From: a virus
Strand: one strand, 5' to 3'
IMG/VR virus record: IMGVR_UViG_3300042905_006708
Location: 1 to 44,985 of that record
DNA length: 44,985 bases
The notes beneath the pieces were generated by a model that was given only the letters and a program-made list of their open reading frames with translations, made no database searches and was not told the origin of the DNA. Below, one piece after another: positions 26,687 to 35,491 of the stretch (position 1 is its first letter; each line of letters begins with the position of its first letter). The translations under genes were made by a program, and so were the position numbers.

Positions 26687-27139
26687 ATGGCATGTCATAA
26701 AGGTTTGAATTTTTTCAGATGGAGTGTTATTGGTATGACTAGTGCAAATTTGTTTCTTGCTTTTTTTATTAGTCTTCGTTTATGGAGTTTGGATTATAAA
26801 GTTGAAAATTTTTATGTAACAGACAGTATGTTGCGTAAAGAATTAGTTGATAGTGCTTTTGCGGTTGGTGCAGGAAATTGGAAGTTTGATAAATCTACCA
26901 AGCTTGAAATTGTTGACACCAAGTATACTGGTTACGAAAATATTTTATTTGTAGAATTTAATGACGAAAAGACTTTGGAATTACCTGAAGCTAAATTTAG
27001 TGAAGGTATTGAGCAGATTGAAAATAAAAAATTAAAATTTAAGATAGATGGACTTTTGAAAATGATTTATGTCAAAGTGAAAGATGTTCCAATTTGCACA
27101 AATATTAGTATTATTGAATTTAAGTCTTTGAAAAATTAA
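26687..27139 (+). CDS. single-pass membrane protein of unknown function
   Basis: 150 residues. One N-terminal membrane segment (SVIGMTSANLFLAFFISLRLW, about residues 13-33) is followed by a soluble, probably periplasmic beta-rich domain (KLEIVDTKYTGYENILFVEF; KLKFKIDGLLKMIYVKVKDV). AGAGG lies upstream. The two Cys residues flanking the fold could be free or paired. No family recognised. Confidence 0.65.
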   Translation: MACHKGLNFFRWSVIGMTSANLFLAFFISLRLWSLDYKVENFYVTDSMLRKELVDSAFAVGAGNWKFDKSTKLEIVDTKYTGYENILFVEFNDEKTLELPEAKFSEGIEQIENKKLKFKIDGLLKMIYVKVKDVPICTNISIIEFKSLKN

Positions 27140-29648: not shown

Positions 29649-29654
29649 TATTTA
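29649..29654 (-). promoter_or_regulatory. TAAATA late-type box, probably leaderless transcript
   Basis: TGTAAATA on the minus strand ends five bases before the ATG at 29643. It overlaps the stop region of the upstream glycosyltransferase. Confidence 0.45.
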
Positions 29655-30380
29655 CAACAAACTAATGCAAATTTTATTGTGGTATTTATGGTGATTTCTA
29701 TTCAATTCAACAAAATGATAAATATCATGATTTAACCAGTTGCACATTGGTGAATAAGAGTTATTATTTTTAAGAACTCCATCTGGATGTAAAATCAAAA
29801 TATCTTCCTTGTTCAGAACTGAAAAACTTAATTGTGATTTTATCAATAACGAAATCAAACCTTGTTCATCTGCCGAATCTATATTTTGTAGTGATCCATG
29901 TTCTTTCCAGATTTTAATAATGTTAGCTTCTAAATCAAATCCAGATGGAAATCCTAATAATCCTGCATTAAATTTTTCATATTTATTAAATAAATGTTGA
30001 AATCTACCAAAATATTGGACATCATCTTCACATATTAAAAATGAATCATTGTTAAGAAAATTTAATATTTTATTATTTTTTCTTATAAAAACAATATCAT
30101 TATCAATGAAGAGTTCTTTTTTTGAAATGTTTATTCTTGCAGGTGTGTATTTCCAAATGCTTCCTGATCCTTCAAGTATTGTGTTTTCTTGTTTTATAAA
30201 TTTTACGTCTATATTTAAATTTATTTCTGGTTTTGCAATATTGTTATAGCAAATATAAAAATCAAAATTTTTTCCATAACAATCAACAAATGATTTAATT
30301 GATTTTTTTAAGCAAGATAATCCTTGCTTGCTAACACTACCTATTGTCCATCTGACAATAGTATTATTTTCATTTTCCAA
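29652..30380 (-). CDS. GT-A-type glycosyltransferase, TTG start
   Basis: 242 residues. KKELFIDNDIVFIR holds the DxD motif (D93, D95) that binds metal and nucleotide sugar; SFLICEDDVQYFGRF and FNAGLLGFPSGFD follow as in small GT-A enzymes. The start appears to be TTG at 30380, overlapping the end of the CxxCH gene by 11 bases; no in-frame ATG lies close by. It therefore appears to be translated as the last-but-one gene of the minus-strand secreted cassette or from its own leader. Donor and acceptor unknown. Confidence 0.72.
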   Translation of the reverse strand: MENENNTIVRWTIGSVSKQGLSCLKKSIKSFVDCYGKNFDFYICYNNIAKPEINLNIDVKFIKQENTILEGSGSIWKYTPARINISKKELFIDNDIVFIRKNNKILNFLNNDSFLICEDDVQYFGRFQHLFNKYEKFNAGLLGFPSGFDLEANIIKIWKEHGSLQNIDSADEQGLISLLIKSQLSFSVLNKEDILILHPDGVLKNNNSYSPMCNWLNHDIYHFVELNRNHHKYHNKICISLL

Positions 30381-30762
30381 AGAACTTCAGCAATCTAGAT
30401 TTTTGTTTTTCTTCTAGTTTTTTGCATTTATCAAATGATTTTTCATTTTGTATAAATTTGACTAAAGTGTCTTTGCTTTCTTTTAGAAGAACTTCGTTTT
30501 CTTCATCAAATAAGCCTAAGTCTTTTGTAACAGAACTTACACTATGACAAGAGAAACAATTATCTTTAAGTATCTTTTCACATTCTTTCTTGTGAACAAC
30601 TTTAAGTTTTGAATCAATTTCTTCACTGTCTAGCTCAGAAATTAAAGCCTTCAAGACTTCCTTGTCTTTATCTTTTGATGAAGGTTCTTTAGCTACAGGT
30701 GGTTCCTGTGCAAACATTGCAGAACAAAACAACAAACTAAAAGCTGCGAAAAATCTCATCAT
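30370..30762 (-). CDS. secreted c-type-heme-motif (CxxCH) protein
   Basis: 130 residues. A clear Sec signal peptide (MMRFFAAFSLLFCSAMFAQE, cleavage after FAQ or MFA) is followed by a Lys/Glu-rich linker. CEKILKDNCFSCHSVSS then carries a heme c motif C69-F-S-C72-H73. The segment after it (KDLGLFDEENEVLL) resembles the GGLRLD-type block of planctomycete cytochrome domains. No Met follows that could be the sixth ligand, and two further Cys (61, 113) may pair. A redox or structural role outside the membrane is inferred. GAGGA lies upstream. A phage-encoded c-type cytochrome would be very unusual. Confidence 0.7.
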   Translation of the reverse strand: MMRFFAAFSLLFCSAMFAQEPPVAKEPSSKDKDKEVLKALISELDSEEIDSKLKVVHKKECEKILKDNCFSCHSVSSVTKDLGLFDEENEVLLKESKDTLVKFIQNEKSFDKCKKLEEKQKSRLLKFFGK

Positions 30763-31244
30763 TTATCCTCGTCAATTGCCTTTTCAACCGCATTAATCAA
30801 AGCCTCAAGAATCTTCTGACCATACTTTTCAAAAATGTAAGGAAGCAATTTTTCAACAACAACTTTCAATAAATTACTGCTAATCTTATCTTTGTTGCTG
30901 TCTCTAATCAAAGCATCGATAAACTCGCTATCCAAATCTGCAAACCCAGCTTGACCTTGAGCAGCAAGATTTGCAACCATCTTCTTTTTCGACAACAAAG
31001 AAATAAAGAAATCCATTACAAATGGACCAAACAGTCTGAAACTCTCAAAAATAAACGAAATTGAGAAACCATTACGAAGACCTTCTGTAACCGTAGAAAG
31101 AACATCAGGTCCATACTTTTGTAAACATTCTGCTAAAAATTCTGGAGAAGCACCCATCTTGAGTGCTTCTTCTTGCATAACATCAATATCAACTCCATCC
31201 ATTGGAGTCTCGCCAACCATGCCAAATCTTTCAAAATCACTCAT
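30759..31244 (-). CDS. helical protein in the papain cassette
   Basis: 161 residues, largely helical with amphipathic and mildly hydrophobic stretches (ISFIFESFRLFGPFVMDFFISLL, about residues 62-84) and an Ala/Glu/Lys C-terminus (YGQKILEALINAVEKAIDED). No signal peptide. AAGG lies upstream, and the stop overlaps the start of the CxxCH gene. No family recognised. The hydrophobic helix could insert in a membrane. Tight packing with the papain gene implies a shared task. Confidence 0.6.
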   Translation of the reverse strand: MSDFERFGMVGETPMDGVDIDVMQEEALKMGASPEFLAECLQKYGPDVLSTVTEGLRNGFSISFIFESFRLFGPFVMDFFISLLSKKKMVANLAAQGQAGFADLDSEFIDALIRDSNKDKISSNLLKVVVEKLLPYIFEKYGQKILEALINAVEKAIDEDK

Positions 31245-31247
31245 TTG

Positions 31248-32054
31248 TTATACCTTTACAGTAGGAACATCATCTTGAGTGTTTGGATCTTTAGGATCGT
31301 CAATCACTCCTTGGAATGCAAAGCAATCTAATCTACTATAGTAAGCAAAATGTTCTTTTCTTACATAACAATAACCATTCATTCCAAAATTACTTCCCCA
31401 ACTATTCTGCAACTTAACAAGCCAGCCATACTTGCTATGTTTCTTAAGCCCACAAGCCAGCATAGAATGCCCGCCACCGCCTCCATTTGGAAGAGGGGAG
31501 ATTCCCTCTGCATCTACTTTAGAGAAGTTAGAACCCACAAGAATGCCAATATTAACGACAAAGCCAATACTCAAGGCAGAACATACTTCTTCAAACGTAG
31601 TGCAACGATAAGCTTTCTCAAGTTTGAACCTAGCTGCATTATCATAAGCTGATTTTGTCAAACTATTCTTGTAGTAAACCCTATCACTAGGAAATGCGCC
31701 AAGTTCGCAAATACCATACTTTTTAAGCATGTCAAGGCTGTTTGAGATATATGCTCCGGCATCTTGTCCGCCATTAATTAAAGCATAATGAAAAAATGGA
31801 TTGAAACTTTCAACCACATCTTGTCTTTGTTTGTACAATATCTCCATACCAGCAGCTGTAGCATGAGCAACACAACTACTTGTGGATTTTTGGTTCAAAA
31901 TCCTATGACCTTCCCAAGACATATCAATTTCTTGAAGCGTCCCAGAAAATCCTTGACCACTCTCTGAAAAATATGGAAAACTATCATCAACAGGACTAAG
32001 TTGATGAGAAAGAACACGATAATATCCGTCGAAATAAATTGATGGGAAACTCAT
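31248..32054 (-). CDS. papain-like cysteine protease (peptidase C1 type)
   Basis: 268 residues with the full papain triad: Q55 and C61 in NQKSTSSCVAHATAAGMEI, H196 in GGGGGHSMLACGL, and N217 in LQNSWGSNFGMNGY. The oxyanion Gln, the NSWG block and the G-x-x-G-Y ending are canonical C1A features. There is no signal peptide and only a short propeptide-like N-terminus (about 45 residues). A Pro/Asp tail (DDPKDPNTQDDVPTV) ends it. AAGGAG lies upstream, one base from the preceding gene. Substrate unknown: host proteins, neighbours' products or virion proteins. The antisense frame within it is a shadow. Confidence 0.88.
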   Translation of the reverse strand: MSFPSIYFDGYYRVLSHQLSPVDDSFPYFSESGQGFSGTLQEIDMSWEGHRILNQKSTSSCVAHATAAGMEILYKQRQDVVESFNPFFHYALINGGQDAGAYISNSLDMLKKYGICELGAFPSDRVYYKNSLTKSAYDNAARFKLEKAYRCTTFEEVCSALSIGFVVNIGILVGSNFSKVDAEGISPLPNGGGGGHSMLACGLKKHSKYGWLVKLQNSWGSNFGMNGYCYVRKEHFAYYSRLDCFAFQGVIDDPKDPNTQDDVPTVKV

Positions 32055-32055
32055 A

Positions 32056-32769
32056 TCAATCTCCTTTAGTGATTTTTGTCAATACATCAAGAACTTCTTT
32101 TTCTGTTTTAGGAATCGCACTATAATGCAAAACTGTTCCATCTGAACTTTGAACAATAAACAAACTATTACCTGTTTTTTCAAGTAAAGTATCAAGCTTT
32201 TTGTTTTTTACAATAGGACTGGCAATATCGTAAACTTTGTAATAACTCTTTGTTTTAGTAATTTCATCACGAATAGGTTTTGAATTCAATATTGCTGCTA
32301 ATTCTGAATTAGAATTGTTAAAATCAAACAAGAAAGTAACATGTAAGCCTTCTTTTACAACAACAACTGGCTTTACGGGATCAACAGGATCAACTGGTTT
32401 TGTCCCTTTGACAGTAATTGAAGTTTTAGCAAATTCAGTTAATTTACTATCAACAAGAGAAACAGCAAAAATACTTACAGTTCCTGATTGTGGCACAGCA
32501 ACAACAAGACTGTTTGTTTCTTCATTGGCCACATATTTAACTTTGCTCTGACTAACCACAAGCCATTTGACTTTTCCTTTTGATTTAGCTTGCACAAGCA
32601 TAAAGCCTTCAGAATTTTCAACTATAATATCTTCAGGAAGTTCTAAACCTTCAACTTTTGCTGATAATGTTGTTGTAGGAAGAGGGTTGCTTACTGTAGG
32701 AATCGGAATTTGAGCCAAAGAAACAGTCGCAAAAATCAAAATACTTGCAATACTAGCCAAAATTCTCAT
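32056..32769 (-). CDS. secreted protein with beta domain, Pro-rich linker and thioredoxin-like C-terminus
   Basis: 237 residues. The signal peptide MRILASIASILIFATVSLAQ is cut after SLA. A beta-sandwich-like domain follows (about residues 40-120: GKVKWLVVSQSKVKYVANEE; VAVPQSGTVSIFAVSLVDSK), then a Pro/Val/Asp linker (PVDPVDPVKPVVVV). The C-terminal domain (HVTFLFDFNNSNSELAAIL; SLFIVQSSDGTVLHYSAIP) has the strand order of a thioredoxin fold but no CxxC. This layout reminds me of planctomycete surface proteins. GAGG lies upstream. It is first gene of the four-gene cassette. Confidence 0.7.
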   Translation of the reverse strand: MRILASIASILIFATVSLAQIPIPTVSNPLPTTTLSAKVEGLELPEDIIVENSEGFMLVQAKSKGKVKWLVVSQSKVKYVANEETNSLVVAVPQSGTVSIFAVSLVDSKLTEFAKTSITVKGTKPVDPVDPVKPVVVVKEGLHVTFLFDFNNSNSELAAILNSKPIRDEITKTKSYYKVYDIASPIVKNKKLDTLLEKTGNSLFIVQSSDGTVLHYSAIPKTEKEVLDVLTKITKGD

Positions 32770-32810: not shown

Positions 32811-34124
32811 TTACATAACTTCAATTTTTCTTATGTCCTCTTCAGTTAGATAAACATAGTTTCCCATCTCATCTATCATCATTTTTATTAATAAATTTCT
32901 ATTATCAATATTATTAATTTTACTTATGCTAGAAATTCCTCTTAATGGTCTTACGTTTCTCTCCCCTTTACTTTCCAGATAAGATTCTACATTGTGTAAG
33001 ATTGATACAAAGTCATCAATATCATTAATTTTATCTTTATCTATAATATATTTTTTAACTGTTTTGCTTTTTATTAAATGCTTTTTTTGTTCTAAATTCA
33101 TTGGAATTTCTCTTCCAGAGCCTTCACCTTCTCTAAACAATATTCTTCTTAAATTTTCAGAAAGATTTTGTTTTACATATGCTGAAAACCTTTTAGCTAA
33201 TGTTTCTTTAGCTGATATGAAGTCACTGTGTAATTGATTTATTATTCCAAAACCTTCTGTTATATAAGGTTCGCTTGTTTCGTTTTTGTTTAAACATGCA
33301 ATTAACGCATCTAATGATTTTGTGTTATTTCTTCCACGGATTGGAAATTCATTGTTGATTTTCTCATGAATTTCACTTGTGTTACTAGATTTTAACATTA
33401 CATCAAATTGCTGTTCGAGTGGGTCTTCTTCAATTTCTTCAGGCGTTAGAGAATCCTCTTCTTTAGTTTCTTCTTCTTCAGTTGCTGGTGCTGTGACATT
33501 TATAAATTCGGCATCATCATCTTCGTCTTCACCATCTTCTTCTCCTTCTCCATCTTCTCCTTCATCATCTTCTTCTCCTTCTCCATCTTCTCCTTCATCA
33601 TCTTCTTCTTTTGTTTCTTCTTCACTACTTTCTTTTTCTGGTTTTTCTTCTTCAGGTTCTTCCACTTCTATTGGTTTTTTCTTACCGGAAGTAGGAGCAG
33701 TTGTTTCTGGCTTTGGAACAATTGGGGCCATTCCAAAAACTCTATGGTCAATGTCTTGTTCGGCATTTTTTCTTAACATTGTTACGATTCTAACAGCTGC
33801 AACTTCATTTCCTGTAATTCCAATCAAACTGTCAAGGAACTTTTCGTACGCCAATTGAAGTTGCTTTTTCAAAGTTATAGTTGCTGAATTCAGACTTCTT
33901 GTACCCAAACCAGCCCTAAATCCATGATACATGCCTCTTAATGCACCACCAATACCACTAAGAAAGCCGCTGCTGCTAAGATTGCTGTATTCATTGAACA
34001 AACTCTTGTTCTTTATTTTGATAGCAAGAGATATTAGATCAGAAGGATGAATTTGTTTTTCTTCCATAAATGAAATAAAGTCTCTATTAGCTAGCTCTTT
34101 TGAAAATTTGAAAAATGCATTCAT
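32811..34124 (-). CDS. late, probably head-core, protein with acidic repeat tract
   Basis: 437 residues. The N-terminus MNAFFKFSKELANRDFISFMEE contains two hydrophobic-x-Glu sites (FSKE, FMEE). The middle (about residues 150-230) is a very acidic Glu/Asp/Gly tract with repeated EDGEGEED units, encoded by an imperfect tandem repeat. A helical C-terminal half follows (IIDKDKINDIDDFVSILHNVE). Acidic, cleavable proteins are typical of T4 prohead cores. AGAGGA lies in the leader, and a TAAATA box lies 20 bases upstream. The Ser-rich antisense frame over the repeat is an artefact. Confidence 0.7.
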   Translation of the reverse strand: MNAFFKFSKELANRDFISFMEEKQIHPSDLISLAIKIKNKSLFNEYSNLSSSGFLSGIGGALRGMYHGFRAGLGTRSLNSATITLKKQLQLAYEKFLDSLIGITGNEVAAVRIVTMLRKNAEQDIDHRVFGMAPIVPKPETTAPTSGKKKPIEVEEPEEEKPEKESSEEETKEEDDEGEDGEGEEDDEGEDGEGEEDGEDEDDDAEFINVTAPATEEEETKEEDSLTPEEIEEDPLEQQFDVMLKSSNTSEIHEKINNEFPIRGRNNTKSLDALIACLNKNETSEPYITEGFGIINQLHSDFISAKETLAKRFSAYVKQNLSENLRRILFREGEGSGREIPMNLEQKKHLIKSKTVKKYIIDKDKINDIDDFVSILHNVESYLESKGERNVRPLRGISSISKINNIDNRNLLIKMMIDEMGNYVYLTEEDIRKIEVM

Positions 34125-34144
34125 TTGATAAAATCCTCTTACTA

Positions 34145-34150
34145 TATTTA
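34145..34150 (-). promoter_or_regulatory. TAAATA late-type box with SD leader, between divergent genes
   Basis: CTTAAATA on the minus strand, 20 bases before ATG 34124 with AGAGGA in the leader. On the plus strand the same bases read TATATTTA, ending close to the hldE-like ATG at 34154. Confidence 0.4.
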
Positions 34151-34153
34151 AGC

Positions 34154-35491
34154 ATGCACGAATTATTTAACGAATTACTCAACAAAAAAATAACTATTTC
34201 AGTGGTTGGTGACACACTGATTGATGAATTTTATAAAGTAAATGTAAATAGAATCAGCCCAGAATTTCCAATTCCTGTAATGCTTTCAAATAGCGGCAAT
34301 CCATATAAAACAGTGTGTGGAGGAGCAGCAAACGTAGCAAATCAGTTCAAATATTTTAATATTGACACCAAATTGGTATCTTTTTTGAACTTTTATGCAA
34401 AAGAACTATGTGATGCAGAAGGAATAGATATTAGTCATTCACATGAGTGTGATACATGTCAAGTGCCTATAAAGAAGAGATTTTATCATGATGATCATCC
34501 AATTATGCGATGGGATGTAGAAGCGAAAAATTATGGTGTTGATAATCTTGCACAACAATTAAAAAATTTAAATCCACCCGAATCAGATGTTGTTATTTAT
34601 TCTGATTATGATAAAGGTCTATTTACCAAAAAATTCAACATGACAGGAAATGGAATTTCGTTAGTTGATCCAAAAATAGATGTTTCCTTATGGAATAAAT
34701 GTTCTGTATTTAAACCAAACTATCATGAAGCAGTTAGAATAACCGGAGAGAAAGATATAAAAAAACAAATTGATAAAATTATCAAAAAATTAAAATGTGA
34801 ACAAGTTGTTATTACAAAATCTGGTGAAGGAGTTTTTGGTTATTCAAAAGAAGAAGGATATGTTGAAGTAATACCTGAAAATGAATTACCAAAGCCAGTT
34901 AGTGTGTCAGGAGCAGGAGATGCGTTTGCTGGATTTTTAGCTATGGGTTTAGGATGTGGATTTAGCCTTAAACAATCTATGACATGGGCATTTAACGCTG
35001 GAACTATTTATGTATCTAACAAATACAATCAACCACTTTGTATGGCAGATTTTTTGCGTAAAGAAAAATATGTTAAAAATTGGGAATTCCTTGCAAATAG
35101 AAACTTTAAGTTGGTTGTAACTGGTGGTTGTTTCGATGTGCTTCACAAAGGACATATGCACAGTCTTAGAGAAGCTAAAAAGCATGGAGATAGACTTTGT
35201 GTAACTTTGAATTCTGATGAAAGTATTAAGCGGTTAAAGGGACCAAAGCGTCCAATCATGCCATTAGAATCAAGAATTGAAGTACTGAAATCTTTAGAAT
35301 TCGTAGATTATATTGTTGTATTTGAATCAAACACACCTGAAGATGTTTTGAAAGTATTAAAACCAGATGTCTATGTTAAAGGAACTGATTATAAAAACAA
35401 AGAACTACACGGTTCTGAATATGTGAAACGTGTAGTTCTTGTTGATCTCGTTGAAGGCTATTCAACTACTAAGTTTTTGGGAGGCGGTTAA
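34154..35491 (+). CDS. hldE: bifunctional heptose-7-phosphate kinase / heptose-1-phosphate adenylyltransferase (HldE/RfaE-like)
   Basis: 445 residues with both halves intact. Residues 1-300 are a PfkB-type sugar kinase: VGDTLIDEFYKV, GGAANVANQF and VSGAGDAFAGF (GAGD 253-256, catalytic Asp). Residues 315-445 are a cytidylyltransferase-fold domain: VVTGGCFDVLHKGHMHSL (HxGH, 331-334), LNSDESIKRLKGPKRPI and VEGYSTTKFL. Bacterial HldE makes two steps toward ADP-heptose for LPS. Start at 34154 gives a normal N-terminus and avoids overlap with the divergent gene. The phage could supply ADP-heptose to the nearby glycosyltransferases or alter host LPS. Confidence 0.93.
   Translation: MHELFNELLNKKITISVVGDTLIDEFYKVNVNRISPEFPIPVMLSNSGNPYKTVCGGAANVANQFKYFNIDTKLVSFLNFYAKELCDAEGIDISHSHECDTCQVPIKKRFYHDDHPIMRWDVEAKNYGVDNLAQQLKNLNPPESDVVIYSDYDKGLFTKKFNMTGNGISLVDPKIDVSLWNKCSVFKPNYHEAVRITGEKDIKKQIDKIIKKLKCEQVVITKSGEGVFGYSKEEGYVEVIPENELPKPVSVSGAGDAFAGFLAMGLGCGFSLKQSMTWAFNAGTIYVSNKYNQPLCMADFLRKEKYVKNWEFLANRNFKLVVTGGCFDVLHKGHMHSLREAKKHGDRLCVTLNSDESIKRLKGPKRPIMPLESRIEVLKSLEFVDYIVVFESNTPEDVLKVLKPDVYVKGTDYKNKELHGSEYVKRVVLVDLVEGYSTTKFLGGG

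Follow-up and report, generated by a model that had tools for sequence, protein, structure and literature searches.

A conserved phage gene cassette pairing a papain-type protease with exported proteins, a candidate lysis-type module

Distant phage papains (peptidase family C1) are encoded in or beside lysis genes. Immediately after a Hol44 holin, one contig (L077:7878-9758) encodes a single protein that joins a papain to choline-binding repeats and a phage lysozyme. In another (L078:7878-8774), the papain is present in two pieces, separated by a frame break, ends in an SLH (S-layer homology) domain and is followed by a holin-like gene. The papain lies two genes after an M15 endolysin in L079, adjoins a lysozyme2-M15-PG-binding endolysin in L076, and directly follows a GH25 endolysin in the Thermoanaerobacterium phage THSA-485A. 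Here, we have analyzed a phage locus carrying a papain gene of its own, named B. Like the L077 endolysin, B has a phage C1 papain domain and no signal peptide, but it stands alone: it has no lysozyme domain, no wall-binding domain and no recognised holin next to it, and the identity over the papain part is only 28%. The THSA-485A papain is also a stand-alone phage C1 papain of similar size; it differs in sequence (26% identity) and in its neighbours, which include none of the genes A, C and D described below. The nearest solved relative of B by profile is PDB 3ois_A (1.8e-13), a peptidase C1 protein that is remote and not known to be of phage origin.

The window, that is, the whole stretch of 44,985 nt of IMG/VR virus record IMGVR_UViG_3300042905_006708, comes from a large uncultivated phage in which T4-like replication genes were named by eye. 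Four intact ORFs follow one another on its minus strand: A (32056..32769, 237 aa), B (31248..32054, 268 aa), C (30759..31244, 161 aa) and D (30370..30762, 130 aa). The A/B and B/C spacings are 1 and 3 bp, respectively, and C and D share a 4-bp ATGA overlap, in agreement with the packed four-gene cassette proposed in an earlier sequence-only reading. The same reading had placed an SD before each gene; SD-like sequences were found for A (GAGGTG), B (AGGAG), C (AAAGG) and D (GAGG), that of C being weak. The B/C junction is in frame (TAA CAA ATG), with one stop and one codon between the two genes. Hydropathy and inspection confirmed two Sec signal peptides, on A (MRILASIASILIFATVSLA) and D (MMRFFAAFSLLFCSAMFA) only, and hydropathy revealed no export signal on B and C. 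Thus, the description of the locus as a secreted cassette that acts outside the inner membrane suits A and D, as well as the huge-phage proteins E and F presented below, but not B and C.

Comparison with contig L003 gave dN/dS values of ~0.17 (A), ~0.06 (B), ~0.23 (C) and ~0.28 (D) (NG86, dS partly saturated), and by this measure all four genes are under purifying selection. The packed unit may extend beyond D. The gene g29652 (29652..30380, minus strand, 242 aa), glycosyltransferase-like by eye and with no Pfam match, overlaps D by 11 bp as a possible continuation of the operon, and g28720 starts 8 bp past it. A g29652 homologue adjoins the cassette only in L002, and the conserved block in relatives stops at the fourth gene. 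A common promoter upstream of A was considered and discarded, the TACTAT-like motif showing no enrichment.

B matched the C1 papain family PF00112 with 28.2 bits (cut-off 20.7; 2.5e-6). The alignment placed the catalytic residues at Q55 (oxyanion; 31890-31892), C61 (31872-31874), H196 (31467-31469) and N217 (31404-31406), all on the minus strand, and the four were invariant across 10 B orthologues. With a complete Q/C/H/N set and a score over the cut-off, the intact papain of the earlier annotation was upheld, and B is a predicted protease of peptidase family C1. It has neither a signal peptide nor a pro-domain (N-terminal hydropathy 0.12). A profile scan of 84,980 bacterial species genomes, which needs exact short peptide matches, returned no B homologue, and all that the plasmid searches yielded were C1 peptidases and a single cytochrome, each of them remote. 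In one relative (L159:1130-3193), the papain gene is split by a LAGLIDADG-domain intein exactly at the catalytic cysteine (GQVGSC/FPAGT). In the huge phages L109, L110 and L112, there is also a second, unrelated papain of family C1, encoded not far from CTP synthase genes; it was rejected as a B counterpart, as it is a different gene, beside CTP synthase in two of them.

The signal peptide of A spans approximately residues 1-20 (32710..32769; hydropathy 2.68 over 12 residues, ...SLA/Q), and the N-terminus was hydrophobic in all relatives of a 16-row alignment. The AlphaFold model (14 sequences, pLDDT 76.6) shows strands at residues 48-121 and a beta-alpha-beta-alpha-beta-beta-alpha arrangement at residues 143-235. 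These correspond to an Ig-like beta-sandwich (32407..32628) joined by a Pro-rich linker to a thioredoxin-fold domain (32065..32343), both on the minus strand, and Foldseek against the PDB returned Ig-like domains and TrxA 2voc (E ~1e-3). Both domains were also matched by three BFVD proteins of uncultured Caudovirales phages (A0A6J5MFD0, A0A6J5M6Q9 and A0A6J5NXZ0; E 1e-12 to 4e-11), with 15-18% identity and a low whole-chain TM-score, the linker being flexible. The designation of A as thioredoxin-like therefore stands for the modelled fold but not for a redox role. A contains no cysteine at all, so the CxxC active site is absent from its thioredoxin fold and thiol redox chemistry is ruled out; hence, we discarded A as a thioredoxin oxidoreductase or disulfide reductase.

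C is all-helical and amphipathic, as its previous label of helical protein had implied, and carries KYGP-type repeats in varying number, the protein in L070 reaching 226 aa. Its best 19-residue hydropathy was only 1.28, and the structure model (pLDDT 57) is too weak for a fold statement. Relatives of C gave saposin-like matches, which may be amphipathic-helix noise. B and C are joined into a single ORF of 427 aa in L011, a fusion seen in one contig, where a sequencing error around the stop is possible.

D combines its signal peptide with a helix, a CFSCH motif (30544..30558, minus strand; kept in L003) and the conserved residues C61 and C113. The c-type heme motif noticed before is thus present, and it is the only CxxCH among the 52 non-overlapping window ORFs of at least 80 aa, with 0.07 expected from composition. 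An exported protein with CxxCH is what D shares with c-type cytochromes of the planctomycete and cbb3 types (PSCyt1 PF07635, PF13442). Unlike these, D has no Met ligand after CFSCH (window and L003) and no His beyond the motif (window), and the best Pfam match of its family profile (14.7 bits) is under the cut-off of 27.

A fourth gene encoding CxxCH is common to the window, L002 and L003; its syntenic counterpart in L004-L011 and L016 retains the exported N-terminus but ends in ...CPT, with no CxxCH. The sequence-only reading had regarded absence of CxxCH from close relatives as evidence against itself. Such absence is found in these contigs but not in L003, and the motif recurs in huge phages: E comes after A(-B-C) in LR756511, L025-L030, L053 and L070, and F comes after E where the contig is long enough. 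E (539-623 aa) has an invariant GRSC..CH, F (~243-305 aa) has CxxCH ... MPP or MPS, and both are exported by inspection. F, with the downstream MPP, gave weak cbb3/PSCyt1 matches; D and F were aligned by hhalign with a probability of 20%. The fourth gene is variable, a predicted exported accessory that is probably heme-binding where CxxCH is present.

The profile scan with E of the 84,980 bacterial species genomes, relying on exact short peptide matches, found none. In L012 (11271-13847) and L027 (10208-12944), E and F are two consecutive exported CxxCH proteins for which no close bacterial homologue was found. The E motif GRSCxxCH..GIRPI.DE resembles the CcoO heme site, and an exported Gly/Val/Ala-rich repeat protein is encoded after E and F (L027:13013-13735, L026:12854-13552).

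By tblastn and profile searches, A-B-C was found in one order in 19 phage contigs, with identity down to 34-45%. These comprise 11 close contigs (L002-L011, L016), LR756511, L025-L029, L053 and L132; L070 (B-C) and L131 (A-B) are cut off at contig ends. LR756511 is a 595-kb phage whose B is 45% identical to the window B. The gene-order search proposed earlier thus revealed a linked module and not scattered homologues. In the window group, the flanking genes are RfaE-like and ThyX; in the huge group, they are tRNA-His guanylyltransferase and, named by eye, neck or tail genes. Since the order is kept while the flanks differ, the linkage points to more than shared ancestry of the whole region. 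Tail and neck genes (by eye) surround the cassette in a 341-kb relative, whereas in the window lineage it is found near nucleotide-metabolism and glycan genes. In the literature searched, no description of this gene set was found, as the sequence-only reading had anticipated; the cassette as a whole matches no system described there, B itself belonging to the known C1 family.

Departures from this order were also observed. In L042/L043, a 138-aa A, consisting of the Ig part, stands directly before C, the papain and the thioredoxin part being missing, and L030 retains A, E and F in the absence of B and C. In L146-L148, B is absent, and A and C are followed by a further Ig-type protein and then by a papain from a different subfamily (PF00112 3e-11); as this papain stands there with A and C, a papain-type enzyme seems to be required in these contigs. 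L161 encodes a relative of the L146-L148 papain (37%) beside small membrane proteins, and a secreted CGPC thioredoxin follows it. A papain adjoining an exported thioredoxin-fold protein thus recurs in separate lineages.

Several further features of the window were recorded. An RfaE-like bifunctional sugar kinase/nucleotidyltransferase (by eye) is encoded at 34115-35491 (+), with glycosyltransferase- and sulfotransferase-like genes nearby; L043, L131, L146 and most of the T4-like group have a homologue of the RfaE-like gene next to the cassette. A small single-TM protein (26687-27139, +) has a homologue convergent to the cassette end in L004-L011. Six genes, at 2619(+), 6636(-), 24995(+), 27159(+), 39280(+) and 39504(+), start with M(K/I/N)(T/S)FxxF(L/I/M)xE, against 0-1 in reversed/shuffled controls, and this start was also found in related contigs. 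This start resembles the sequence that directs internal head proteins to the capsid in T4, and the six genes probably encode a protein family that is packaged or injected. As to the host, the TIGR03067 planctomycete domain in the 341-kb relative and the weak PSCyt1 match of F are only hints.

We propose, with a probability of about 40%, that A-B-C and the fourth gene make up an unconventional lysis-type cassette, in which a protease would disrupt the envelope with exported accessories at its side, and which is predicted to function late in infection. Lysis was absent from the sequence-only reading; it is the context of the distant phage papains that points to it. The proposal is further supported by the conserved A-B-C order, the B-C fusion, the papain replacement in L146-L148, the L161 papain with its small membrane proteins and secreted thioredoxin, the tail/neck location in the 341-kb relative and the results for endolysin families: neither LR756511 nor seven to eight related records matched PF00959, PF01464, PF08291, PF01510, PF07486 or PF00877, while the controls responded. 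LR756511 carries an M23 peptidase elsewhere, which counts against the proposal, and thus a classical endolysin may be present. B resembles the lytic enzyme of a holin-endolysin pair in having no signal peptide, but there is no adjacent holin; A-D contain no holin, no transmembrane segment besides the signal peptides and no muralytic domain, C being only amphipathic. Other observations also count against lysis: B shares only 23-29% identity with the lysis-linked papains, the cassette of the window lineage does not lie near tail genes, L042/L043 retain C and the Ig part of A although papain is lost, L030 retains A, E and F without B and C, and we know of no lysis system with exported CxxCH proteins.

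In such a lysis-type cassette, B would be made without signal peptide or pro-domain, in an endolysin-like manner, and would reach the envelope once the membrane is breached, there cleaving envelope proteins or peptide cross-links. C could anchor B to the membrane, control its activity or contribute to opening the membrane. A would be exported beforehand and, with its Ig-like domain and redox-dead thioredoxin fold, could serve as a periplasmic binding or chaperone partner, D here and E and F in huge phages being the variable exported accessory. A broader scenario, in which phages of up to 595 kb replaced the peptidoglycan-cutting endolysin by papain-based release, with exported Ig/thioredoxin-fold and heme proteins preparing the envelope of a possibly planctomycete host and with proteolysis coupled to envelope redox, strikes us as distinctly unlikely.

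The sequence-only reading had named envelope redox as one example of a role. A respiratory or redox module, in which D, E and F would be c-type cytochromes keeping or redirecting electron flow, A a periplasmic partner, and B and C processing factors, would explain why exported CxxCH proteins recur by the cassette in two groups, as D (window, L002, L003) and as E and F (L012, L025-L030, L053, L070). It would also suit the CxxCH...MPP mono-heme pattern of F with its weak family matches, the CcoO-like motif of E, the set kept in L030 and the secreted CGPC thioredoxin beside the L161 papain. However, CxxCH is not a fixed member, being lost from the fourth gene of L004-L011 and L016; D lacks the Met ligand and stays under the Pfam cut-off, comparison of D and F gave no clear homology, A has no cysteine and the core most often linked is A-B-C. 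We consider this a weaker rival of the lysis-type cassette, and an unlikely one. That B and C are without signal peptides, in frame and fused in L011 would also fit a cytosolic role in host takeover or processing. Here, the targets of B would be proteins of the host or the phage, and C would inhibit or activate B or serve as a substrate adaptor, an inhibitor being plausible for a protease without pro-domain; A and D would be separate exported genes sharing the transcript. This appears doubtful, given that exported A is the most constant neighbour, that C persists without B in L042/L043 and that distant papains occur in a lysis context.

From the export signals and from the glycosyltransferase-like and RfaE-like genes nearby (named by eye), it could also be envisaged that exported A and D exclude superinfecting phages or modify the surface, their maturation being under the control of B and C. 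Yet, these glycan genes are unlinked to the cassette in huge phages and no exclusion family was matched, which makes this role very improbable. Least probable, with hardly any chance left, is B as a virion assembly (prohead-type) protease with C as a scaffold-like partner. A helical partner fused to a protease does recall protease-scaffold fusions, and several window proteins carry T4-type capsid-targeting N-termini, but A is exported, B matches C1, and LR756511 and the 341-kb relative have a separate T4 gp21-type prohead protease (PF03420, ~1e-27); B as a T4-type prohead protease is thus largely refuted.

A-B-C is conserved from T4-like to huge phages, which gave no match to the main endolysin families tested. 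Should the cassette serve lysis or breach the envelope, it would show that proteolysis of the papain type can take the place of wall hydrolysis or support it. Should heme be bound by the CxxCH proteins, these phages would export cytochromes, which would bear on the effect of huge phages on host respiration.
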